Source: Paenibacillus sp. 453mf (lineage in GTDB: Bacteria; Bacillota; Bacilli; Paenibacillales; Paenibacillaceae). Taken from it: DNA of 64,000 nt. The stretch is taken from NCBI RefSeq assembly GCF_900116105.1, contig NZ_FPAC01000001.1, positions 1,912,862-1,976,861 of the forward strand. Direction: 5' to 3'. The position numbers and the translations under genes were made by a program. Below the pieces are notes generated by a model. The model searched no databases, had not been told where the DNA came from, and saw only the letters and a program-made list of their open reading frames with translations. Position 1 is the stretch's first letter; each line of letters opens with the position of its first letter. Of the stretch, positions 2,972 to 64,000 are shown piece by piece.

Positions 2972-3868
2972 ATGGCTGCAACTGCCAAGAAACCCGCCTA
3001 TAAAAAAGAGTCGCTTGGAAACCGAATATTCAATGTAGTCAATTACACGCTGCTTGCACTGATCGCTCTGGCTTGTCTGCTTCCCTTCATTAATGTACTC
3101 GCAAGCTCATTTGCATCTACGCAGGAGTTGGTTGAGAAGAAGATCGTATTATTCCCAACGACGTTTTCCTTGGATGCATACAAGTACATCTTCTCGACCT
3201 CGACGATCTTCCAAGGTCTTGCGGTATCGATCGGTACAACGATCGTGGGAACGGCTGTGAGTATGCTCCTGACTGCACTGATGGCTTATGGCTTGTCCCG
3301 AAAATATTTATATGGAAGAAGCTTCATCAACTTTATTGTTGTGTTCTCCATGCTGTTTAGCGGCGGGATGATCCCTACCTTTCTGGTCGTCAAAGCGGTC
3401 GGCCTGATTGATTCGTATTGGTCGTTGATCCTGCCAGTCGCTATCAATGCTTTCAACCTGATCATTATGAGAAACTTCTTCCAAGCACTGCCGGATAGTC
3501 TTGAAGAGTCTGCCAAGATTGACGGAGCGAATGATTTCCGAATTCTTGGGAGCATTATGCTGCCGCTCGCCCTTCCGTCGATTGCTACACTGTCCTTGTT
3601 CTATGGGGTTACGTACTGGAATACTTATACGAATGCTATTTTATACCTGACAGATTCGGACAAATGGCCTTTGCAGGTCCTTCTGAGACAAATCGTTATC
3701 GTCTCCAGCGGCATGGAAGGCGACAGCTCTGCAGTGGATATTATCCCGCCTGCACAGACCATCAAGATGGCCGTCATTGTAGTTGCTACACTTCCTATGC
3801 TGATTGCCTATCCGTTCGTACAGAAGCATTTTACAAAAGGGGCATTGCTTGGGGCGGTAAAAGGATAG
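2972..3868 (+). CDS. Carbohydrate ABC transporter permease, YtcP/LplC-like
   Basis: Second permease of the importer, 298 residues with about six membrane segments. An EAA-like loop near residue 180 (EESAKIDGANDFRILGSIML) is typical of MalG/YtcP-type subunits. The ATG at 2972 is preceded by AGAAGGAGG at a good distance. In related operons this gene normally sits in line between the LplB-like permease and the binding protein. Here it is inverted and diverges from them, which separates it from its partners' transcript. The frame is intact, so it is probably functional. Confidence 0.87.
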   Translation: MAATAKKPAYKKESLGNRIFNVVNYTLLALIALACLLPFINVLASSFASTQELVEKKIVLFPTTFSLDAYKYIFSTSTIFQGLAVSIGTTIVGTAVSMLLTALMAYGLSRKYLYGRSFINFIVVFSMLFSGGMIPTFLVVKAVGLIDSYWSLILPVAINAFNLIIMRNFFQALPDSLEESAKIDGANDFRILGSIMLPLALPSIATLSLFYGVTYWNTYTNAILYLTDSDKWPLQVLLRQIVIVSSGMEGDSSAVDIIPPAQTIKMAVIVVATLPMLIAYPFVQKHFTKGALLGAVKG

Positions 3869-31651: not shown

Positions 31652-33811
31652 TTAATAACTCATTTCAATTCGCACCGCTGTCGTTTTGAATCCCGGCATT
31701 TTACAGAAGGGGTCCAGTTCGCCGCGTGTGGCACGGTTCACATTTTGAACGCCTCCCCAGTGCATAGGCACAAACAGGGTGTCCTTTCGGATCTGTTCAT
31801 TGAAACGGCACCGTACCTGGAATTCACCATATCGAGAAGTGATTCTTACCCAGTTCTGTTCTTTGATTATATAATGACGTGCCGTATCTGGATGAATTTC
31901 TACGAAATTTTCTACCTGTCGCGATGCAAGTCCCGGACTCAGCCTTGTTTGTACTCCTGTCAGATAATGAGACAGCACCCGGCCATTGGTCAGCATAAGA
32001 GGGTATTCCTTTGACAAACTTTCTTTGATCATTTTACTTTCTTCCGCTGTAAACACCGCTCTGCCATCGGCATGTGCAAATCGTTCTTCGAAAATTCTAC
32101 CTATTCCCTCTTCGTCTACCTCAGGACAAGGCCAGTACACTCCTTCCTCCTTCCGCAGTCGATCATAAGTGATGCCGTAGTAATCGGCGATACCACCCCG
32201 GCTGGCGACTCTAAGTTCATTGAAAATTTCTTCTGCCGAAGTATAGTCGAAGTATTTGCCTTTACCCAGAGCCTTTGCGAGCTCCCGAAGAATCTCCCAA
32301 TCATGTCTGCAATCTCCTGGGGGCTTCGTGACTGCTTCACGCAGGAGTACCCGTCCTTCCAGATTCGTGAGGGTACCTGTGTTCTCTATATAGGAGCTAA
32401 CCGGAAGAACGACATCGGCCAAGCGCGCCGTTTCAGATAGAAACATATCCGCTACGGCCAAGAATGGTACCTTCTCCAGTGCTTCCTCAACGAGTGTTGC
32501 GTTAGGGTTCGAAACAATCGGATTTGAACCCATCACGAACAGCGCTTCAATGTCTCCCGAATGAACGAGCTCCATCATTTCATAGGCGGATACGCCTTTT
32601 CTAGGAATTTCACCTTCTTCAACACCCCATACGGAAGCAATGTAATTCCGATCCTGCTCATCCTCAATGGAGCGGTATCCAGGAAGCTGATCCGCCTTCT
32701 GACCATGCTCCCGGCCACCCTGTCCGTTCCCTTGACCTGTAATCGCTCCGTATCCGCAGCCTTGTCGGCCGATCTTCCCTGTAACGAGCAGCAAATTAAT
32801 AAAATGTCTGACCGCGAGGTGCCCATCTGTCTGCTGTTCCACTCCTCTGGCCGTCAGCACCATACCTGTCTTCGCCTTGCCAAACATGTCAGCGGCAAGC
32901 TTCAGATTTTCTACGGATACTCCGGTGTTTTCCGTGATATACTCCCAATCGAGTTTATCAAGATAAGCCGTCAATTGTTCATAGCCGTTCGTTCTATTTG
33001 CAATAAATGCTTCATCCAACAGCCGCTGCTCCCTCAGCCATTTCAGCATTCCGTCTGCAAGCAGCATATCCATGCCCGGACGAACGGCAAGATGGAGGTT
33101 TGCCATAGCTGCTGTCGATGTTCTGCGCGGATCAATGACAATAATCACCGCACCCTTTTCTTGAGCTCTAGTAAAATACGGCATAAGTGTAGGCTGGCAT
33201 TCCGCAATGTTGGTTCCCGCGAGTATGATACATTTTGCATGCTCAATATCGGCCAAAGGGAAGGTTAGACCCCGATCCATTCCAAACACCTTAGCACCTG
33301 CCGATGCAGCAGCAGACATACAAAATCGTCCATTGTAATCAATATACTTGGTGCCGATGCCAATCCGCGCAAATTTGCCGAGCATATATGCCGTTTCATT
33401 TGTCAGTGATCCACCACCGTATACGCCGACCGCATTCTTAGGAATAGACCTTATCTTGTCCGCAATACACTGAATCGCTTCATCCCAGGAAGCTTCCGTA
33501 AGTTTACCGTCCTTTTTGATTAGCGGAGCCGTAATTCGTCTTGCGCTTGTCGTATGCTGGTGAGCATTCATGCCTTTGACACAAATTCTTCCTTCGGAAG
33601 CTTTGTTCAGGGTCCCTTTGGATTCCGTCACATACTGCAGTACACGTGTTGTCGACTTAGAGACAAGCTCGCGAGATTCAATCGTCACCTCCGCTTTACA
33701 CTGTACGCTGCAGAATGGACACTGCGTCGTTGCATGATGAACTGCACCTTGCAGCACCGAAGCTGTTTCTTGCTTAGAATTCGATACTCCTGATGAGCTA
33801 GCCATTGTCAT
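31652..33811 (-). CDS. nasC: Assimilatory nitrate reductase catalytic subunit
   Basis: Molybdopterin oxidoreductase of about 719 residues that reduces nitrate to nitrite in the cytoplasm. Cys31, Cys34 and Cys38 (CPFCSVQC) plus a Cys in GRICVKG form the N-terminal [4Fe-4S] site; the molybdopterin-binding and C-terminal dinucleotide-binding domains follow (FVPMHWGGVQNVNRAT near the end). No twin-arginine signal is present, as expected for an assimilatory enzyme. The start is the ATG 33811 with AAAGGAGTGGG upstream. It lies 44 nt after nasB, which supplies electrons. Both are under the leader at 35951-36020. Confidence 0.93.
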   Translation of the reverse strand: MTMASSSGVSNSKQETASVLQGAVHHATTQCPFCSVQCKAEVTIESRELVSKSTTRVLQYVTESKGTLNKASEGRICVKGMNAHQHTTSARRITAPLIKKDGKLTEASWDEAIQCIADKIRSIPKNAVGVYGGGSLTNETAYMLGKFARIGIGTKYIDYNGRFCMSAAASAGAKVFGMDRGLTFPLADIEHAKCIILAGTNIAECQPTLMPYFTRAQEKGAVIIVIDPRRTSTAAMANLHLAVRPGMDMLLADGMLKWLREQRLLDEAFIANRTNGYEQLTAYLDKLDWEYITENTGVSVENLKLAADMFGKAKTGMVLTARGVEQQTDGHLAVRHFINLLLVTGKIGRQGCGYGAITGQGNGQGGREHGQKADQLPGYRSIEDEQDRNYIASVWGVEEGEIPRKGVSAYEMMELVHSGDIEALFVMGSNPIVSNPNATLVEEALEKVPFLAVADMFLSETARLADVVLPVSSYIENTGTLTNLEGRVLLREAVTKPPGDCRHDWEILRELAKALGKGKYFDYTSAEEIFNELRVASRGGIADYYGITYDRLRKEEGVYWPCPEVDEEGIGRIFEERFAHADGRAVFTAEESKMIKESLSKEYPLMLTNGRVLSHYLTGVQTRLSPGLASRQVENFVEIHPDTARHYIIKEQNWVRITSRYGEFQVRCRFNEQIRKDTLFVPMHWGGVQNVNRATRGELDPFCKMPGFKTTAVRIEMSY

Positions 33812-33855
33812 GCTGACTCCCACTCCTTTTTTATCTGAACATCCAGATTCGTCGT

Positions 33856-35877
33856 TTATGCATATTCCAGCTGCTTATGTTCCATCTCCATGACCCGTTC
33901 TCGAATGCTCCCGATCCCTGTCCGCTCAACCCATTCCCACATTTTCTCGTTAAACCAGCCCTCTGTGCTATAGAGCTCCACTGTGAATTGAGCAGCACGT
34001 ATGGCCCCTTCTCTGGTGTCCGTCAGGCATAACAGCTGTCCCTCCGCTACCGGATGCCGTGCATGACCTCCCACGTAAATCTCGTATCCAGCGGGACACG
34101 CTTGAATGGCAATATCATGAAGCTTTATCCCGAATACGGACTCCGCTTCCTCTGAGGCAGCAGCATATATTGAAGCAGGAACCCGCTGCTTAGAACACCA
34201 GCTTAGAAATTCCTCAAATGTATCTAACGGTAAGGAGCAATGCTGAGCTTCTTGAGATCGGTTTCGCTCTATGTAGTATGAAATCGTATCTTCACAGGTG
34301 CGGCATCCATCTATATGATCTGCAGTTAAATCAAGTGACTCACGCACTTCTGTAGATGATATAGCTCCTATAGTACTAATGAGTTGTATCAACTCCTCGT
34401 GTCCGGCTGACATGCAGGAGCAGATGCTATGATCTGTGACTGATTCGTGTTCTGCACCGCTGATTGGCATCGAAGCACCTGACAGCGTAACCTTCACAAT
34501 CGCCTCCAGCATGGGCCTGCACCCACCGCATGATCCAGATGCCTTCGTCTTCTGCTTGATTTCATCCGCAGTCGTTAGACCTTCTTTTCCCATCACCTTC
34601 ACGATCGCTGATTTGGATACTTGGTTGCAGGCACATACCGTCTCTCCTCCCGGCATCGAAGCAACAAGAGCCTCCATCCGGTTTTCGCCTGCAGGTGCAG
34701 ATTGCATTGCCGTCAGCTCATGGACATCCGCTTGATGTTTAATGTATCCGAGCAAGGTCTGGGATTCGGTCGTATCTCCATATAAAATAGCTCCAATAAG
34801 TTTACCGTTACGCATCGTCACTTTTTTATATTTAAATTGCAGACGATCATATTCCTGAACTGCTACACTGATGTCTGGTCCAATCTCACCAACAGAGAAT
34901 AGATCAACACCGGAGACCTTCAGCTTGGAGTAAGGAATCGAGCCCTGATAAGCTTCGGTTGTCATATGACATAGCTTACGTGAAAGGACTCTTGCCTGAT
35001 CATATAGAGGCGCTACCAGTCCATAACAGATCCCCTGATGCTCGGCACATTCTCCGACGGCATAGATGTGCTTATCACTTGTCTGCATGTAGTCATCGAC
35101 GATAATCCCCCGGCTCACTGCAAGTCCGCTATCTCTCCCGATGTCCACATTAGGACTGATCCCTACAGCAAAAACAATGAGATCCGCCGTCAGCTTACTT
35201 CCACTGGCAAGCCGAATTCCCTTGGCCCTGCCGTCTCCGATAATTTGAACGGTTTGTTGTCCAAGGCGGAATTTCATTCCTTGTGCTTCCAGCTCTGTCT
35301 GCAGCAGTCCTGCGGACATCGGATCCAGCTGTCTATTCATCAGATACGCAGCATTGTGAATAACTTCCGTTTCCATACCAAGGTTCAGCAGCCCTCTTGC
35401 AGCTTCCAGCCCAAGTAACCCCCCGCCAATCACAATGGCTTTCTTGAATTCCCTTGCGTAATCCATCATCAGGAGACAATCATCCATACTTCGAAAAGCA
35501 ATAACGCCCTCCTGATCACTTCCCGGTATAGGCGGTATGAAGGCTGATGACCCCGTTGCAATCAGCAGATCATCATAAGTCAACTTCATTCCAGAAGAGG
35601 TTTCTATCTTTTTTTTCTTCCGATGAATCCGTGTGACCTTCTCTCCCGTGTAAAGTTTGATTCCGTTCTGTTCGTACCAAGTCCAGTCATGAATAATTAT
35701 ATCTTCAAATGAAGTTCCACCTTGCAGCACTTTGGACAATTCGATCCGATTATAGTTCGGTCTCGGCTCTGCACCAATCACCGTAATTTCATAAAGCTCA
35801 TGATTTAGTTGAATGATCTCCTCTATGCATTTCATGCCTGCCATTCCGTTTCCAACGACAACCAACTGTTTCTTCAT
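33856..35877 (-). CDS. nasB: Assimilatory nitrate reductase electron-transfer subunit (FAD)
   Basis: About 673 residues. The N-terminal pyridine-nucleotide-disulfide oxidoreductase module (FAD motif VVGNGMAGMKCIEEI; NAD motif VIGGGLLGLEAARGLL) is followed by two BFD-type [2Fe-2S] segments (VCACNQVSK...GSCGGC and ICSCMSAGHE...GCRTC). The last 130 residues resemble the sulfite-reductase half-domain of NirB but lack its iron-sulfur cysteines. It carries electrons from NAD(P)H to NasC. It is about 35% similar in layout to the first half of the nasD product at 60-62 kb, pointing to an old duplication (by-eye estimate). Ribosome site GGAGG is 9 nt upstream. Confidence 0.88.
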   Translation of the reverse strand: MKKQLVVVGNGMAGMKCIEEIIQLNHELYEITVIGAEPRPNYNRIELSKVLQGGTSFEDIIIHDWTWYEQNGIKLYTGEKVTRIHRKKKKIETSSGMKLTYDDLLIATGSSAFIPPIPGSDQEGVIAFRSMDDCLLMMDYAREFKKAIVIGGGLLGLEAARGLLNLGMETEVIHNAAYLMNRQLDPMSAGLLQTELEAQGMKFRLGQQTVQIIGDGRAKGIRLASGSKLTADLIVFAVGISPNVDIGRDSGLAVSRGIIVDDYMQTSDKHIYAVGECAEHQGICYGLVAPLYDQARVLSRKLCHMTTEAYQGSIPYSKLKVSGVDLFSVGEIGPDISVAVQEYDRLQFKYKKVTMRNGKLIGAILYGDTTESQTLLGYIKHQADVHELTAMQSAPAGENRMEALVASMPGGETVCACNQVSKSAIVKVMGKEGLTTADEIKQKTKASGSCGGCRPMLEAIVKVTLSGASMPISGAEHESVTDHSICSCMSAGHEELIQLISTIGAISSTEVRESLDLTADHIDGCRTCEDTISYYIERNRSQEAQHCSLPLDTFEEFLSWCSKQRVPASIYAAASEEAESVFGIKLHDIAIQACPAGYEIYVGGHARHPVAEGQLLCLTDTREGAIRAAQFTVELYSTEGWFNEKMWEWVERTGIGSIRERVMEMEHKQLEYA

Positions 35878-35950
35878 CTAGTAAGCCTCCATCCCTTGCC
35901 TATCTCTGTAAAGAAACCACGATATTGAATTCTGTTTCACGAAAATGAAC

Positions 35951-36020
35951 AAAAAAGCCCCTTTTCCATGGTAAGAAAAAGGGGCTGCGCTGCCTCACGA
36001 AACAGCACTCCGTTGTGCTG
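35951..36020 (-). promoter_or_regulatory. ANTAR-responsive antitermination leader of nasB-nasC
   Basis: Read in the minus direction: hairpin P1 is CAGCAC-AACGGA-GTGCTG (36020-36003), then a 7-nt linker, then hairpin P2 GAGGC-AGCGCA-GCCCC (35996-35981, one A.C mismatch). Both six-base loops have A1 and G4, the recognised ANTAR target. The 3' arm of P2 is shared with the 5' arm of a terminator (35986-35956, stem AGCCCCTTTT) followed by six T. P2 and the terminator therefore exclude each other. Without bound ANTAR protein the transcript should end before nasB. Confidence 0.82.
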
Positions 36021-36034
36021 AACTTATATATAAG

Positions 36035-36074
36035 AGAATATAGGACACCTGATCTCGTGTCAATATATTTAACA
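36035..36074 (-). promoter_or_regulatory. nasB promoter with overlapping GlnR/TnrA-type box
   Basis: In the minus direction TTGACA (36063-36058), a 17-nt spacer and TATTCT (36040-36035) form a good sigma-A promoter. Transcription would start about 8 nt before the P1 hairpin. TGTTAAATATATTGACA (36074-36058) fits TGT-N-A-N7-T-N-ACA exactly and covers the -35. Confidence 0.72.
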
Positions 36075-36118
36075 CAAAATACTTTCAAATGATTACATTC
36101 ATCTTTTTCAGGAAATTG

Positions 36119-36158
36119 CGTTAAGTATCTTGACATAATCAAAAGCAATTTCTATAAT
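36119..36158 (+). promoter_or_regulatory. Nitrate-transporter promoter with overlapping GlnR/TnrA-type box
   Basis: TTGACA (36130-36135), 17 nt and TATAAT (36153-36158) form a near-consensus promoter. CGTTAAGTATCTTGACA (36119-36135) fits TGT-N-A-N7-T-N-ACA with one mismatch (first base) and covers the -35. Confidence 0.75.
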
Positions 36159-36186
36159 TCAGTGTACAGTCATTCAAACAGAGTAC

Positions 36187-36275
36187 ATATGTGATTCACA
36201 ATGAAGTGAATCATGTGTCACGGCAATGAGGCCGCAACTCGAACCCTTGATTAGGGGCGAATTGCGGCTTTTTTT
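36187..36275 (+). promoter_or_regulatory. ANTAR-responsive antitermination leader of the nitrate transporter gene
   Basis: The clearest of the three leaders. P1 is GTGATTCAC-AATGAA-GTGAATCAT (36191-36214, extendable outward), P2 is CGGC-AATGAG-GCCG (36221-36234). Both hexaloops have A1 and G4. The 3' arm of P2 (GCCG, 36231-36234) is the start of the terminator arm GCCGCAA (36231-36237), which pairs with TTGCGGC (36262-36268) before seven T. ANTAR binding to P1-P2 should prevent the terminator and allow transporter expression. Confidence 0.88.
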
Positions 36276-36308
36276 GATGTGGTTGAGTTTCGAGATTCAG
36301 AGCGGGTC

Positions 36309-36393
36309 TTAACAGCCTGCTGTTAAGATCCAACACTTTAATGGAACTTAACAGCCTGCTGTTAAACTCCAAACTTTAATGGAACTTAACAGC
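36309..36393 (+). repeat. Tandem palindromic repeats TTAACAGCCTGCTGTTAA
   Basis: The 18-nt unit (8-bp arms, 2-nt centre) occurs at 36309-36326 and 36348-36365, and a left half (TTAACAGC) at 36386-36393. Spacing is 39 and 38 nt, and the spacers share TTTAATGGAAC. They lie after the leader terminator and before the transporter gene, so they are in its 5' untranslated RNA. They may be a local duplication, protein-binding sites or a dispersed repeat family. Confidence 0.8.
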
Positions 36394-36469
36394 TACCATA
36401 ATAGATCGATCCGGATAATTATACTGTTTATCCCCGATTTGATCTAAAAGAAAAAAAGGAGAGATTAGG

Positions 36470-37702
36470 ATGGAGAAAAAAAGTTTCTGGAAAAGCGGGC
36501 ATAACCCCACACTCTTCGGCGCATTTTTTTATTTTGACATCAGCTTCATGATCTGGGGTTTGATCGGCCCGCTTAGTGTTGTCATTGCAGGAGATTACCC
36601 CATGGATGCGGCTCAAAAAGCGAATCTGGTTGCACTTCCGGTATTAAGCGGCTCCATACTCAGACTGCTCTTCGGGTATCTGACCGACCACATTGGTCCT
36701 AAACTTACGGCGCAGATTGGAATGATCGTTACCTTAATCCCCTTGGTTCTCGGCTGGCAATGGGTCAGCTCACTGGATCAGCTGTATGTTGTTGCCCTGC
36801 TCCTTGGTGTGGCTGGCGCTTCCTTCGCTGCAGCGCTCCCGCTTGCAAGTCAGTGGTATCCAAAAGAGCATCAAGGCCTAGCAATGGGAATTGCCGGAGC
36901 AGGTAACAGCGGAACTGTACTCGCAACACTATTTGCGAATCGGCTTGCTACACATTTTGGAAGCTGGGAAGTCGTATTCGGACTCGCCATAATTCCCATC
37001 GTCATCGTATTTATCATCTTCACCATCTTCGCCAAGAACAGCCCGAATCGTCCTGCACCAAAAACCTTTGCTCAATATGCTAATGTCTTAAAACAAAAAG
37101 ATGCAGTCATTCTCTGTTTATTTTATTGTGTTACCTTCGGCGGCTTTGTTGGTCTGTCCAATTACTTAACGATCTTCTTCAATACTCAATATGGTCTGTC
37201 TGCTGTACAGGCAGCCGATATTGCAACATTCTGTATTATTGCAGGCAGCTTCTTCCGGCCTGTTGGAGGCATGCTCTCTGACCGCTTCGGAGGTACTCGA
37301 ATTCTGACATTCCTCTATGCAGGTGCTGCTCTAATGCTGGCAGGCGTTTCATTCCTGCCCCCGCTTCCGGTCGTTGTCGTACTCATGTTTATCGGCATGA
37401 TGTGCCTTGGAGCCGGTAACGGTTCGGTGTTCCAGCTTGTTCCGCTAAGGTTCGGCTCCGAGATTGGTCTCATGACAGGAATTGTCGGTGCAGCCGGAGG
37501 ACTAGGAGGTTATGCTCTACCGCTTCTTCTCGGAAACCTATACAAATCTGTCGGAAGCTACACTCCTGGATTCTTGATTCTAAGCATCGTCGCTGCAGCT
37601 GCTTGTATTCTTGTCGTTGCCATGAGCCTGCAATGGAGAAAAACATGGCTGCAAAAACAAGGCAAGAAGTCTGCTGCCATAGCTGCAGAAGTAAACGCAT
37701 AG
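36470..37702 (+). CDS. nasA: Nitrate transporter, MFS (NarK/NasA-like)
   Basis: Major-facilitator protein of 410 residues with about 12 membrane segments. The nitrate signatures are present: GIAGAGNSGTV after segment 4 and GAGNGSVFQLVP after segment 10, with an Arg in segment 2 (GSILRLLFGY) as in NarK. It imports nitrate for the assimilatory NasBC. GGAGAG precedes the ATG. It is divergent from nasB; both have the same promoter layout and ANTAR leader. Confidence 0.92.
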   Translation: MEKKSFWKSGHNPTLFGAFFYFDISFMIWGLIGPLSVVIAGDYPMDAAQKANLVALPVLSGSILRLLFGYLTDHIGPKLTAQIGMIVTLIPLVLGWQWVSSLDQLYVVALLLGVAGASFAAALPLASQWYPKEHQGLAMGIAGAGNSGTVLATLFANRLATHFGSWEVVFGLAIIPIVIVFIIFTIFAKNSPNRPAPKTFAQYANVLKQKDAVILCLFYCVTFGGFVGLSNYLTIFFNTQYGLSAVQAADIATFCIIAGSFFRPVGGMLSDRFGGTRILTFLYAGAALMLAGVSFLPPLPVVVVLMFIGMMCLGAGNGSVFQLVPLRFGSEIGLMTGIVGAAGGLGGYALPLLLGNLYKSVGSYTPGFLILSIVAAAACILVVAMSLQWRKTWLQKQGKKSAAIAAEVNA

Positions 37703-58876: not shown

Positions 58877-59659
58877 TTATCCGATCTGCTCCATTCGAGC
58901 TGGAAGCTCCTGCCGTAATTGCAGCAGTTCTTCCCTTACCTTCACAACCTCTCCAATAACGATGAGAGCTGGATTCTCAATACGCTCTACCTTGGCAATC
59001 TCCTCAAGCTGCTCCAAGGTTGTTACCATTACGCGCTCCTGCGACGTGTTACCTCTCTCAATGATGGCAACCGGTGTATCTGTTTTTTTTCCACAAATAA
59101 TCAGCTCCGAGCGAATAGCAGAGATATGACTCACTCCCATATATATAACAAGTGTGTCTACTTGCTTGGCTAGCTGACCTATTCTTTGCTGACCAAGATC
59201 CACTTCCTTCCGGCTTGCCGTTATGCAAGCGAACGAAGTCGCTAGCCCTCGGTGCGTCAGAGGAATCAATGCTGAGCTGCCGGCTCCGATCGCAGAAGTG
59301 ACTCCAGGAATGACTTCATAAGCAATTCCACGTTTGGCCAGTGCGAGAGCTTCTTCCCCGCCACGTCCGAAGACAAAGGGGTCTCCACCTTTTAATCGAA
59401 CAACATAGCTCCCTGCCGATGCATAATCAATAAGCTTCTGCTGTATCTTCTGCTGTGTCATCGCATGAACGCCCGGTGCCTTCCCGCAATAGATTCTTCT
59501 TGCCTCAGGCCTCGCATATCCAAGAATCTCTTCGTTAACTAGACGATCGTACATGATAATATCCGCCTTCTCAATGCACCGAAGCGCCTTTAACGTGAGC
59601 AGCTCGGGGTCACCAGGTCCTGCGCCAACAATGCTTACATGTCCGCTGCTCTTCTTCAT
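58877..59659 (-). CDS. nasF: Uroporphyrinogen-III C-methyltransferase
   Basis: 260 residues, SUMT/CobA type. SAM-dependent methylation gives precorrin-2 for siroheme, the cofactor of the nitrite reductase next door. Signatures: [19 protein letters not shown] at 8-26, [17 protein letters not shown] near 98-114, and a C-terminal VVKVREEL. Its ATG overlaps the nasE stop by four bases. Confidence 0.93.
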
Positions 59660-59970
59660 AGCGTTACATAAACGGCGCCGCTCGCCGGATCGACCTCAAG
59701 TGCATAGGCATTGACCTTGCCCTCATCCGGTGCTTGAACCTCTCCACTGCAGAGATGTACCTTCCAGTCATGAAGCGGGCAGTGCACATTACTGCCGCAT
59801 ACCATACCTTCCGAGAGCTTCCCTCCCTTATGAGGGCATCGGTTTTCGAGCGCCTTGATGGTACCGTCACTCAGCTTGAATAGGGCAACCTCCGTATTCT
59901 CAATCATCACGACTCTTGTACCGAGGACATCAATATCGGATTCGTATGCTACCAAAAATTTCTGGCTCAT
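59656..59970 (-). CDS. nasE: Assimilatory nitrite reductase small subunit (NirD-type Rieske)
   Basis: 104 residues. The Rieske [2Fe-2S] ligands are present: [11 protein letters not shown] and CPLHDWKV (Cys-His and Cys-His). It works with NasD in the NAD(P)H-dependent reduction of nitrite to ammonia. It follows nasD by 24 nt with GGGGGAGA as ribosome site. Confidence 0.93.
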
Positions 59971-59994
59971 GGCTAATGTCTCCCCCTATTACCC

Positions 59995-62421
59995 CTAATC
60001 GTGTGACAGCTGATAACGATTCAGCGGCTCAAAATTCTTCCGAAGCTCTTTGTTCTCTGCAATCTCTTTCCACGGATCGACCGTGTTGGCTAATGTTTCA
60101 TTAATTCGGGATACGAGCTCGGCTCTAAACTGTGCATCAGCCAATGCTTCCTTGATTGAATCGAGGCCAACTTTTTCGACCCAATCCGAAGTCCTTACTC
60201 CCCAGCTTGCTTGTTCTCTATAATATTGAAGGAATGCGCCAGACCATTCCACGACCTCATCCTCTGTCTTCACTGTACATAACAGCTCCCCGGCTCTAAC
60301 CTTAATCCCGCCGTTACCCCCGACGTAAATCTCCCATGCTCCATCCAACGCAACAACACCAACGTCTTTAATTACAGATTCAGCACAGTTACGGGGGCAA
60401 CCCGATACCGCCATCTTCACTTTGTGTGGAGCATTTAATCGTTCAAATGTCTTTTCAAGCCGGATTCCCATTCCTATAGAGTCCTTGGTTCCAAATCGAC
60501 AGAAGGTTGAACCCACGCAGGTCTTGACCGTCCGAAGTGTTTTACCATAAGCATGACCTGAGGGCATATCGAGATCCTCCCACATACTAGGCAGATCTTC
60601 CTTCTTCACACCAAGCAGATCCAGTCGCTGTCCGCCTGTGAATTTCACCATAGGCACATCATATTTCTCCGCAACCTCAGCAATTCGTTTCAGCTCTCCT
60701 GGAGAAGTAACACCGCCGTATATCCGTGGTACCACTGAGAACGTGCCATCCTTCTGAATATTCGCATGATAACGCTCGTTCGTGAAACGGGACTCCTTCT
60801 GATCTACATATTCGGATGGCCATAGCATGCCAAGATAATAGTTCAGTGCGGGTCTGCATTTCGTACAGCCTTCCGGTTCATTCCAGCCCATGACGTTCAT
60901 GACTTCCTTCACATTTTTCAGGCCCATTTCCTTAATGCCTGCAATAATCTCCTCACGATCAAGTGTTGTACAGGAACAAATCCCTTCCTTCATTCCTGTC
61001 TTCGCTGCATCCCCGGCATAAGCGGTAATCAGTTGTTCGACTATCGGTTTACAGCCGCCGCAAGAAGCGGATGCTTTGGTACAGCCTTTGACTTCAGCAA
61101 CACTATGACACCCCTGACTAACGGCATCTACAATTGTCTGCTTCGTTACGCCGTTACATCCGCAGACGATTTCGTCCATAGGCACATCGAGTATCCTGGC
61201 CCCTGAAGATGCGCTGTCCAGCTTCATACCCAGGAGCAGCTCTTTCTCACGTCCCGCAATCGACTCTCCGTTTCGGATCAGTGAGAACAAGGAAGCTCCT
61301 TCATTCGTATCCCCGAACAATACCGCTCCCACCAGCCGATCACCGCGCAGCACAATTTTTTTGTAGACACCATCAATATCGTCTTGATAACGCAAGGAGC
61401 GGGTGTCGTCTGCATCGAGATAATCACCTGCTGAGAATACATTTACACCGGATACCTTCAGCTTCGTTGAAGTCACTGAACCGTGATACCCTTGATGCTC
61501 CACATTTGCCAAATGCTTAGCCAGGACACTTCCTTGCTCATAGAGCGGCGCAACTAAACCGTACGTTATTCCATTGTGCTCCGCACATTCGCCCACAGCA
61601 TAAACATTCGGGATACTCGTTTCCATACTATCGTTAACGATGATCCCGCGTTTTACAGCAAGTCCCGCACTTTTGGCAAGTGTCACATTAGGAAGAATGC
61701 CGACAGCCATGACAACCAGGTCAGCCGCAAGCTTCTCTCCATCCCGGAATTTAAGTCCACTTACGCGCCTCCGTCCGATTAGCTCTGCCGTTTGCTTATT
61801 CAGCAAGAACTTCATGCCTTGACCTTCTAGCTCCATGCGCAGCATCGTTGAAGCTGGAATATCGAGCTGTCGGTTCATTAGATACTCACTGTTATGAATC
61901 ACCGTAACGTCCATACCCAGATTCAGGAGACCACGTGCAGCTTCAAGACCAAGCAGCCCTCCCCCAATGACTGCGGCCTTCTTATAATTAGCCGAAGCTT
62001 CAAACATCGTTTCGCAGTCCTTCACATCCCGGAAGCCGATAACTCCTTCCTTATCTGCCCCAGGCAGTGGAAGAATGAAGGCTTTAGATCCTGTAGCAAA
62101 AATAAGCTGATCATATGACGCCTCTGCTCCTGATGCGGAAGTTACTGTCTTTTTCATCGTATTCACTTCAATTACAGGATCGCCTGTATATAGGCGGATA
62201 TGATGTTCCTCATACCAAGACCATTCATTAATAATAATGTCATCTACAGAGGTTCCACCTGCAAGTACTGAAGATAACATGATTCTATTGTAATTCGGAT
62301 AAGGTTCCTCCCCGAAGACTGTAATCTCATATTTCTCCGGCGCAAGCTTGAGCAGATGCTCAATGGTTCGAATACCTGCCATCCCGTTTCCGATAAGTAC
62401 TAATTTGCTGCGTTCAGACAT
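59995..62421 (-). CDS. nasD: Assimilatory nitrite reductase large subunit (NirB-type)
   Basis: 808 residues, full NirB length. FAD motif LIGNGMAGIRTIEHLL at the start, NAD motif AVIGGGLLGLEAARGLL near 148, BFD [2Fe-2S] segments (CGCNGVTK, SCGGC; then CSCTTLDRE, GCTKC), then the nitrite/sulfite reductase domain with the [4Fe-4S]-siroheme cysteines in TCVGSTFCRFG and SGCPRNCAES. It reduces nitrite to ammonia in the cytoplasm. It heads nasDEF under the promoter and ANTAR leader upstream. GGGAGAGG precedes the ATG. Confidence 0.95.
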   Translation of the reverse strand: MSERSKLVLIGNGMAGIRTIEHLLKLAPEKYEITVFGEEPYPNYNRIMLSSVLAGGTSVDDIIINEWSWYEEHHIRLYTGDPVIEVNTMKKTVTSASGAEASYDQLIFATGSKAFILPLPGADKEGVIGFRDVKDCETMFEASANYKKAAVIGGGLLGLEAARGLLNLGMDVTVIHNSEYLMNRQLDIPASTMLRMELEGQGMKFLLNKQTAELIGRRRVSGLKFRDGEKLAADLVVMAVGILPNVTLAKSAGLAVKRGIIVNDSMETSIPNVYAVGECAEHNGITYGLVAPLYEQGSVLAKHLANVEHQGYHGSVTSTKLKVSGVNVFSAGDYLDADDTRSLRYQDDIDGVYKKIVLRGDRLVGAVLFGDTNEGASLFSLIRNGESIAGREKELLLGMKLDSASSGARILDVPMDEIVCGCNGVTKQTIVDAVSQGCHSVAEVKGCTKASASCGGCKPIVEQLITAYAGDAAKTGMKEGICSCTTLDREEIIAGIKEMGLKNVKEVMNVMGWNEPEGCTKCRPALNYYLGMLWPSEYVDQKESRFTNERYHANIQKDGTFSVVPRIYGGVTSPGELKRIAEVAEKYDVPMVKFTGGQRLDLLGVKKEDLPSMWEDLDMPSGHAYGKTLRTVKTCVGSTFCRFGTKDSIGMGIRLEKTFERLNAPHKVKMAVSGCPRNCAESVIKDVGVVALDGAWEIYVGGNGGIKVRAGELLCTVKTEDEVVEWSGAFLQYYREQASWGVRTSDWVEKVGLDSIKEALADAQFRAELVSRINETLANTVDPWKEIAENKELRKNFEPLNRYQLSHD

Positions 62422-62471: not shown

Positions 62472-62573
62472 AAAAAAAGCCTGCCGCGCTGTATCAGTGA
62501 ACACAGTTGTTCCCTGAATTTAAGCGAGGTCAGGCTTCGTTGCCATTCCTAGACGAATACGCCATTGTATTCG
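62472..62573 (-). promoter_or_regulatory. ANTAR-responsive antitermination leader of nasDEF
   Basis: In the minus direction P1 is CGAATAC-AATGGC-GTATTCG (62573-62554). P2 is GGC-AACGAA-GCC (62544-62533), closed further out by GG/CC across an internal loop. Both hexaloops have A1 and G4. The 3' arm GCC of P2 is part of the terminator arm AGCCTG (62536-62531), which pairs with CAGGCT (62483-62478); more pairs and a small inner hairpin follow, then seven T (62478-62472). P2 and terminator cannot coexist. Confidence 0.84.
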
Positions 62574-62599: not shown

Positions 62600-62639
62600 A
62601 CTATAATTTGTTTTTTATTTTATGTCAATATACTTTACG
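62600..62639 (-). promoter_or_regulatory. nasD promoter with overlapping GlnR/TnrA-type box
   Basis: In the minus direction TTGACA (62628-62623), a 17-nt spacer and TATAGT (62605-62600). CGTAAAGTATATTGACA (62639-62623) fits TGT-N-A-N7-T-N-ACA with one mismatch and covers the -35. It is nearly identical to the corresponding sequences before nasA and nasB. Confidence 0.75.
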
Positions 62640-62843: not shown

Positions 62844-63431
62844 ATGCGTTCTTTATTACTTGTAGAAACCCATGTCCAAGATGCCCGCCTGTCAGAAGAG
62901 CATACTCGTCCCGAATCCCTGCTGGAGTCAAGTGGCTATCTTGTTCTCGCTGCGGGTAATGAAGCCGACATCCATACTCATATATCCAGAGCAGAAGCAG
63001 CCGTATTGCACCTGCCTGTATACGAGATTGAGTCGTGGAGTGAGAAGCTCATTCAAATTAAACCACTGCCTCTCTTGTGGTGGTGTAGCTCCGATGCCGC
63101 TAGTGCTTCCATTACTTCCTGTGAAGTCGAGGCGCCGATCGATGGAATATTGACTCCTACCATGAAGGAGCATGAGCTCGATTGGACGCTGCATTTTAGC
63201 GAGAAGCGCTTTTTCGAAAGACAAGAATGGGCAAGTGAACGCAAACAACTGCTCGCTAGGATCGAAGATCGTAAATGGATTGACATGGCAAAAGGAATCC
63301 TCAGTGATATTAATCGGATAAGTGAATCTGAAGCTTATGACCTGCTCCGCAAAAAGGCGATGAATGAACGTAAACGGATCGTTGACGTCGCTATCTCCAT
63401 CGTAAAAGCTCATCAAATGCTTAAAGCTTAA
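62844..63431 (+). CDS. ANTAR-domain antiterminator with degenerate receiver domain
   Basis: 195 residues. The C-terminal ANTAR domain (about 135-193) shows LLARIEDRKWIDMAKGIL and AYDLLRKKAMNERKRIVD, the three-helix RNA-binding pattern. The N-terminal 120 residues have the outline of a response-regulator receiver (LLLVET at strand 1, AAVLHLP at strand 3) but lack the acidic pocket and the phospho-acceptor Asp, so phosphorylation is unlikely. It is a NasT/NasR-like regulator by domain. Targets are the three nas leaders in this window. AGGGGGTG lies 12 nt before the ATG. No nitrate-sensor domain (NIT) or NasS gene is seen here. Confidence 0.88.
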   Translation: MRSLLLVETHVQDARLSEEHTRPESLLESSGYLVLAAGNEADIHTHISRAEAAVLHLPVYEIESWSEKLIQIKPLPLLWWCSSDAASASITSCEVEAPIDGILTPTMKEHELDWTLHFSEKRFFERQEWASERKQLLARIEDRKWIDMAKGILSDINRISESEAYDLLRKKAMNERKRIVDVAISIVKAHQMLKA

Positions 63432-63452: not shown

Positions 63453-64000
63453 ATGAATATGAACCATTTTCTTAAAGAAGTGGGTAGAGGTAAAAGAGGC
63501 TCTCGTGATCTAACTTATGAGGAAGCTGCGGAATGTGCAGAGTTAATCTTGTCACAAATAGCAACTCCGGTTCAGATCGGTGCATTTCTTGCATCTGCAA
63601 GACTCAAAATGGAAAGTACGGATGAAATAAAAGCATTCGTTGACATCTGTCGTAAATATGCAAACCGCTCCTACTCCCATGAAGGCATTGATTTTGCCGG
63701 ACCTTATGATGGACGTAGCAATTCTTATTACGCTTCACTAGCCGCGGCGTTTGTCGTTGCAGCTGCCGGTGTAAAAGTAACGCTGCATGGCTCTGAGCCG
63801 CTTCCTCCCAAATGGGGAGTAACCTATCCGGTATTGTTCAGAGCTCTCGGTATCAACACGGAAGCTGCTGATGACGATAACTGCCACCTTGCAGCAGAAG
63901 CCAGCGGCGTACGCTTCATACAGGCAGAACGGTATAGCGGTAAGCTGAGTGGGCTCCGTCAGCTCCGTGAGGAGATGGGACTGCGCACGATATTCAATAC
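63453..64000 (+). CDS. TrpD2/YbiB-like anthranilate phosphoribosyltransferase homolog (partial)
   Basis: The gene begins 21 nt after the ANTAR gene with AAGGAGGTAACCCT before the ATG, and runs off the window (182 codons seen). The N-terminal helical region (GKRGSRDLTYEEAAECAEL, TPVQIGAFLASARLKMES) is that of TrpD-like proteins. The glycine loop expected for PRPP binding reads DFAGPYDGRSNSYYAS, where TrpD has a GTGGD-type loop. That substitution fits the TrpD2 group, whose E. coli member YbiB binds nucleic acid instead of making tryptophan. It is probably co-transcribed with the ANTAR gene. Confidence 0.78.
   Translation, partial: MNMNHFLKEVGRGKRGSRDLTYEEAAECAELILSQIATPVQIGAFLASARLKMESTDEIKAFVDICRKYANRSYSHEGIDFAGPYDGRSNSYYASLAAAFVVAAAGVKVTLHGSEPLPPKWGVTYPVLFRALGINTEAADDDNCHLAAEASGVRFIQAERYSGKLSGLRQLREEMGLRTIFN

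Follow-up and report, generated by a model that had tools for sequence, protein, structure and literature searches.

A conserved two-hexaloop leader RNA and a linked ANTAR protein point to antitermination control of nitrate assimilation in Paenibacillus

Is the leader in front of a narK-type transporter gene of Paenibacillus sp. 453mf a two-hairpin antiterminator operated by an ANTAR protein? An earlier note, made from the sequence alone, had proposed an ANTAR antiterminator before this nitrate transporter gene, and the proposal is supported by the conservation of the leader and by an ANTAR protein gene about 26 kb away in the window, the stretch of 64,000 nucleotides analyzed here. We assign a probability of roughly 0.9 to the reading that three operons of the window make up a single regulon for nitrate assimilation, gated by GlnR at the promoter and by ANTAR antitermination in the leader RNA. 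The anatomy of the leaders, their conservation, the covariation of hairpin P1 and the co-occurrence of the RNA with the protein are established by computation.

The narK-type nitrate/nitrite MFS transporter gene (36470-37702, +) matches MFS_1 with 143.8 bits and TIGR00886 with 296.8 bits, below the cut-off of 311.7. Its leader carries hairpin P1 (36187-36218, +; core 36193-36199 and 36206-36212 around the loop AATGAA at 36200-36205), the putative antiterminator hairpin P2, CGGC-AATGAG-GCCG (36221-36234, +; arms 36221-36224 and 36231-36234, loop 36225-36230), and an intrinsic terminator (36231-36275, +) with a 5′ arm that begins GCCGCAA at 36231, a 3′ arm TTGCGGC at 36262-36268 and a T7 tract at 36269-36275. 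The coordinates and a descriptor search bear out the two hexaloops described earlier, each with A at position 1 and G at position 4 (A1/G4). The GCCG of the P2 3′ arm (36231-36234) is also the start of the terminator 5′ arm, as had been claimed. The three-way exclusion drawn from this arrangement is not borne out; P1 forms alongside the terminator and so pairs in both states, which leaves a two-way exclusion between P2 and the terminator. Folding of 36180-36300 is predicted to give P1 together with the terminator, at -48.1 kcal/mol (z -5.7), a value matched by none of 200 shuffles. Between the terminator and narK, 36308-36410 (+) holds three copies of a direct repeat at a spacing of 38-39 bases. 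Two copies contain the palindrome TTAACAGCCTGCTGTTAA; in the three closest genomes, the narK loci (L008-L010) lack the repeat core.

Two further leaders of the window share this architecture; these, like the ANTAR gene and the GlnR-type boxes described below, go beyond the earlier note. The antiterminator before nasB (35951-36020, -) combines P1 CAGCAC-AACGGA-GTGCTG with P2 GGC-AGCGCA-GCC and an overlapping terminator ending in T6 (covariance model E 5.2e-7), and the one before nirB (62472-62573, -) combines P1 CGAATAC-AATGGC-GTATTCG with P2 GGC-AACGAA-GCC and an overlapping terminator ending in T7 (E 5.3e-8). The nasB-like reductase subunit (33856-35877, -), named from its context, has a NirB-like front and a BFD [2Fe-2S] domain; its C-terminal nitrite-reductase domain is weak and partial (PF01077, 23.6 bits, cut-off 27). 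It is followed by nasC, the assimilatory nitrate reductase catalytic subunit (31652-33823, -; NF047855 1109.3 bits, cut-off 1100), and the nasB-nasC pair is divergent from narK. The third leader precedes nirB, nirD and cobA (58877-62421, -), which encode nitrite reductase and, for siroheme, uroporphyrinogen-III methyltransferase; NirB (1028.6 bits) and CobA (300.6 bits) are above cut-off and NirD (71.0) is just below its cut-off of 74.65. Spacing and strand suggest three operons, narK, nasB-nasC and nirB-nirD-cobA.

These leaders stand out in both the window and the genome. The descriptor, which demands a pair of A1/G4 hexaloop hairpins and a terminator that overlaps P2, was applied to both strands of the window. 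It recovered the nasB leader at 36014 (-), the nirB leader at 62566 (-) and the narK leader, the last in two registers, and in addition a weak site at 3043 (-); in 20 dinucleotide shuffles of the 64 kb it matched once in total. A covariance search of the leader and its relatives, suggested in the earlier note, gave a concordant result. The model, built from 48 sites (distinct motif sequences of the three leaders), was scored on 150 of 1793 candidates in the 5.24-Mb genome, where the three strong sites are the three nitrate leaders (E 5.3e-8, 5.2e-7 and 4.0e-6) and the next-best site has E 0.35. It also matched 56 of 75 genus genomes, with 82 candidates scored per genome; these matches lean in the model's favor, because some of the 48 training sites came from genomes that were later searched. 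A search with Rfam gave no family at its gathering score anywhere in the window, and the 16 weak matches within 35900-36470 at E up to 10 all belong to unrelated families.

Predicted energetics place the default state at OFF. P1 plus P2 is less stable than the terminated state by a predicted 9.4 (narK), 9.5 (nasB) and 9.0 (nirB) kcal/mol, and P2 would therefore have to be trapped in time. For an RNA that ends at P2, the predicted closing-pair probabilities of P1 and P2 are 1.00 and 1.00 for narK, 0.96 and 0.94 for nirB, and 0.31 and 0.27 for nasB, and the longer nasB leader has a predicted fold that lacks P1. On these models, the case for trapping P2 before the terminator appears less clear for the nasB leader than for the narK and nirB leaders.

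Conservation in relatives, set as a test beforehand, favors the proposed RNA. The named loci are the best 80 of 231, mostly from Paenibacillus, with Cohnella, Fontibacillus and two other genus labels also represented; 79 of them entered the nirB-leader count, L122 being omitted as it has no nirB match. With the loop sequences left free, 76 of these 79 nirB leaders keep both A1/G4 in both loops and the overlap of P2 with the terminator. The remaining three (L099, L133 and L140) gave no match with A1/G4 in both loops, and only two other loop combinations occurred in the 79 leaders, once each. Among the 76 leaders from the best 80 of 231 loci, loop positions 3, 5 and 6 vary and position 2 is invariably A, the loop-to-loop distance is 22-26 nt, and each hexaloop hairpin has at least 3 bp. 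Searches of the other two leaders, again with free loops, found A1/G4 in both loops of the narK leader in 30/30 genus loci and of the nasB leader in 29/30, the thirtieth (L007) being the window's own, whose leader was truncated by the boundary of the searched region and is recovered when A1/G4 is required; other combinations in nasB loci each appeared in 1-2 loci. When A1/G4 was required, the narK and nasB motifs were present in 30/30 narK loci and the nirB motif in 29/30 ANTAR loci, with no such motif in L056.

The pairing of P1 is further supported by covariation. The three leaders together yield 48 distinct motif sequences, in which 97.8% of P1 cells are paired and 4 of 6 pairs change on both sides. 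The number of P1 cells changed on both sides is 62, against 20.5 in shuffles, and the covariation score is 0.337, against 0.138; neither value was reached in any of 500 shuffles. Pair types number 14, against 11.6 (17/500 shuffles), and the count of pairs with a double change is not above that of shuffles (4 against 4.1; 419/500). In P2, the three inner pairs are invariant and the fourth is missing in 38 of 48 sequences. As the inner pairs never vary, P2 yields no covariation information.

The gene of the candidate regulator (62844-63431, +) is transcribed divergently from nirB and lies some 26 kb from narK; the protein is one of two ANTAR proteins in the genome. It has 195 residues, with a receiver-like N-terminus, a long helix and an ANTAR domain (PF03861, 59.1 bits, cut-off 27.3). 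Its solved relatives by sequence are EutV, NasR, Rv1626 and AmiR. The best structural alignment of the predicted model (mean pLDDT 89.4) is to EutV (Z 12.9, rmsd 4.7, 174 aligned), with AmiR (1qo0_E) at Z 12.4, rmsd 4.9 and 175 aligned; these values come from a re-alignment of Foldseek's own list, and families outside that list may also match. The available text of PMC8934654 gives R142, K143, K149, E160, Y164, R168 and M172 as RNA contacts of EutV. Their counterparts here, R143, K144, K150, E161, Y165, R169 and M173, match them and are invariant in 34 aligned orthologs, with EutV numbering carrying an offset of 2 between chain and paper, as judged from the motif. EutV K147 corresponds to M148, a position occupied by M in 33 of the 34 orthologs and by K in the other, so that 7 of 8 contacts are kept.

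The receiver-like domain departs from a phosphorylated receiver. At the positions assigned by strand order in the predicted model, the phospho-Asp site holds H in 26, D in 4, N in 2 and Q in 2 of 34 orthologs, and the Lys site holds T in 27, F in 3, S in 3, G in 1 and Lys in 0. Ten residues of the domain, W79, W80, C81, S89, C93, D100, G101, M107, W114 and H117, are invariant in the 34 orthologs, and the WWC motif is present in 80/80 named loci (best 80 of 231). No NIT domain was found in the 195-residue protein, for which Pfam returns ANTAR alone; the genome search with PF08376 (NIT) shows nothing by itself, because that profile was silent in all 14 control genomes. A search with PF13379 and PF09084 found no evident NasS in the genome. 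It did return NMT1-type binding proteins, six by PF09084 and two, both among the six, by PF13379. Five of the six start with lipoprotein-like signals, as judged by eye, and the remaining one (L170) scores a weak 25.3 bits. The two PF13379 proteins adjoin an ABC ATPase and permease, and just one of the two passes the NCBIfam cut-off for a sulfonate-binding protein.

The ANTAR gene is followed immediately by the start of a TrpD/YbiB-like gene (63453-64000, +), which runs past the window (L003:2315-3376). Among the best 80 of 231 loci, 79 have a TrpD-like match downstream of the ANTAR gene, in L070 and L071 as pieces, and L073 has none. Neighbors within 6 kb were compared in 79 named loci (L074 omitted) from the best 80 of 231; the 22 clusters listed revealed no conspicuous additional gene family in common, in a table that includes apparent antisense shadow ORFs. 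A long match to this neighbor, more than 50% identical, occurs in 50 of 54 ANTAR-bearing genus genomes, and a long copy in a genome that lacks the ANTAR ortholog occurs only in G068 among the 75. All 75 genus genomes have a separate homolog at 26-29% identity, presumably TrpD itself. The motifs of TrpD phosphoribosyltransferases include GTGGD, KHGN and a DE pair. Set against solved TrpD, the neighbor has G/A-PYDG in place of GTGGD and mostly LHGS/T/A in place of KHGN; its DE pair reads ED in 16/18 and DE in 2/18 sequences, and PYDGR is found in 18/18. A requirement of this neighbor for the RNA mechanism is not supported: G008, G009, G042 and G043, which have no long copy, keep the RNA.

Across genomes, the RNA and the protein occur together. 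With E 1e-10 as threshold, the ANTAR protein is matched in 128 of 197 family genomes, and nirB is divergent from its gene in 79 of 80 named loci (best 80 of 231). Within the 75 genus genomes, an ANTAR ortholog is present in 54, a narK ortholog in 52 (by our own cut, with G037 partial and G025 in two pieces) and the RNA in 56. RNA and ANTAR coincide in 54 genomes, RNA stands without ANTAR in 2 (G067 and G068), ANTAR never stands without RNA, and 19 have neither, a distribution for which Fisher values ignore kinship. The covariance model gives 154 matches in the 56 genomes: 46 genomes have three sites, 6 have two and 4 have one, and these four one-site genomes are the four with ANTAR but no narK ortholog. 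G067 and G068, in which no ANTAR ortholog was detected, have two sites each. At the G068 locus (L160), the TrpD-like match starts from residue 39 and the nirB match from residue 170, head to head and 47 bases apart, an apparent single deletion of the ANTAR gene, the 5′ end of nirB and its leader that would amount to a natural loss of ANTAR. The narK and nasB leaders of G068 still carry the RNA motif.

Upstream of each leader is a predicted promoter with a GlnR-type box, scored at 8 positions of the consensus TGTNAN7TNACA. The narK promoter (36119-36158, +) has the box CGTTAAGTATCTTGACA (7/8) overlapping the -35 element TTGACA, a 17-bp spacer and the -10 element TATAAT; the nasB promoter (36037-36074, -) has TGTTAAATATATTGACA (8/8) over TTGACA, with TATATT at 15-bp spacing; and the nirB promoter (62600-62639, -) has CGTAAAGTATATTGACA (7/8) over its -35, with TATAGT at 17-bp spacing. 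Counting distinct motif sequences (17 of 30 narK, 17 of 29 nasB and 62 of 76 nirB leaders), the top-scoring box reaches 7-8 of 8 in 17/17 narK, 17/17 nasB and 60/62 nirB leaders, and the shuffled best averages 5.7-5.8; in nasB leader L027 the best box lies off the promoter. For Paenibacillus polymyxa WLY78, the available text of PMC9948412 describes GlnR binding at the nasA promoter, the divergent nasD1 promoter and the nasD2EF promoter, and reports negative control of nasA and nasD. Names and arrangement suggest that these are the same three promoters. That paper is a promoter study in whose available text the word antitermination is absent, in contrast to the leader-RNA gate proposed here.

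Together, the two gates would operate as follows. GlnR would bind the box overlapping the -35 element and report general nitrogen status. RNA polymerase would by default stop at the intrinsic terminator of the leader, unless P1 and P2 with their hexaloops are trapped by the ANTAR protein (62844-63431); the terminator could then no longer form, because P2 takes the first bases of its arm. Nitrate or nitrite probably switches the ANTAR protein on, as the gene content of the three operons suggests with fairly good confidence. RNA binding, readthrough and GlnR binding in this organism are likewise inferred.

A plain terminator, or some other attenuator, could in principle occupy these leaders, with no ANTAR control and with coincidental hexaloops. 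The terminator is stable alone, and P2 is short, its inner pairs being invariant and without covariation support of their own. Such a leader would nevertheless leave unexplained the retention of A1 and G4 in both loops of 76/79 nirB leaders (best 80 of 231 loci) whose positions 3, 5 and 6 vary, the covariation of P1, the way in which the RNA tracks the ANTAR gene across 75 genomes, and the presence of three sites at three linked operons; for another attenuator, no Rfam family reaches its gathering score in the window. This explanation is extremely improbable. The leader might instead be an ANTAR target acted on by the second ANTAR protein (C9:1338699), since two such proteins exist in the genome and share part of the ANTAR residues. 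Against this, the gene of the first protein is divergent from nirB in 79/80 named loci (best 80 of 231), and second-type copies occur in 6 of 75 genus genomes, with the first protein as query, as compared with the RNA in 56. From this linkage and rarity, we judge the paralog very unlikely to regulate the nitrate leaders. The paralog itself (L004:8685-9233, -) keeps WWC without C93 or H117 and is flanked by two arginase-family genes; a solute-binding gene and transporter genes are close by. One of the arginase-family genes has a leader (L004:9380-9575) with a GlnR-type box of 8/8 and TTGACA/TATAAT. Inspection by eye also shows one A1/G4 hexaloop there, AAAGAG, which overlaps a terminator and has no matching P1; neither the descriptor nor the covariance model reported this hexaloop.

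ANTAR antitermination by the first protein may also be correct with a different inducer, namely redox state, NO or a phosphorelay. The protein has no detected nitrate-binding domain, the genome has no evident NasS, and two cysteines in the receiver-like domain are invariant, all of which fit such an input. However, all three targets are nitrate/nitrite assimilation operons, and GlnR probably reports on general nitrogen status. A phosphorelay is further disfavored by a receiver-like domain that lacks the Lys in 34/34 and the Asp in 30/34 orthologs. We regard a non-nitrate inducer as unlikely. With nitrate or nitrite as the preferred signal, it is possible, though we hold this tentatively, that this ANTAR family reads it by an undescribed route, either through the non-phosphorylated receiver (W79, W80, C81, C93, D100, W114 and H117) or through the TrpD/YbiB-like protein as an antagonist, in the manner of NasS and AmiC elsewhere.

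The proposed regulon would add a second gate to nitrate assimilation in the Paenibacillaceae, which include many soil and plant bacteria. The 154 matches in 56 genomes of one genus, in a clean three-operon regulon, provide material for an ANTAR RNA model where Rfam has no match. The system also isolates the question of how nitrate is sensed by an ANTAR protein without a NIT domain, an evident NasS or a phosphorylation site. The literature searched, which left most subscription papers outside its scope, contained no paper joining ANTAR and Paenibacillus, and Table S2 of PMC3369931 may list Paenibacillus.

Several known systems share parts of this design. The eut leaders of Enterococcus faecalis, as described in the available text of PMC3369931 and PMC8934654, likewise have two hexaloop hairpins with A1/G4 in each and a P2 that overlaps the terminator, and EutV shares the receiver fold, coiled coil and ANTAR domain; here, in contrast, the receiver-like domain lacks the phosphorylation residues and the targets are nitrate genes. 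The nasF leader of Klebsiella, controlled by NasR, has the same RNA logic and the same output, nitrate assimilation, but NasR is a NIT-ANTAR one-component sensor, whereas the protein here has 195 residues and a Pfam match to ANTAR only. NasS-NasT of Paracoccus denitrificans, Pseudomonas and Bradyrhizobium likewise has a receiver-like ANTAR protein that lacks its own sensing domain; antitermination in the nirBD-PA1779-cobA operon of P. aeruginosa appears as a title cited in the available text of PMC3795266. In contrast to NasS-NasT, no NasS was found in the genome studied here, and the conserved neighbor is the TrpD/YbiB-like gene. AmiR of the Pseudomonas aeruginosa amidase system also combines a non-phosphorylated pseudo-receiver with a coiled coil and an ANTAR domain (fold Z 12.4); AmiC-AmiR regulates amidase, with AmiC as the amide-binding partner, whereas the targets here are nitrate operons. 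The RNA thus belongs to the known antitermination of the EutV/NasR/NasT type, and the sensing arrangement is possibly new.
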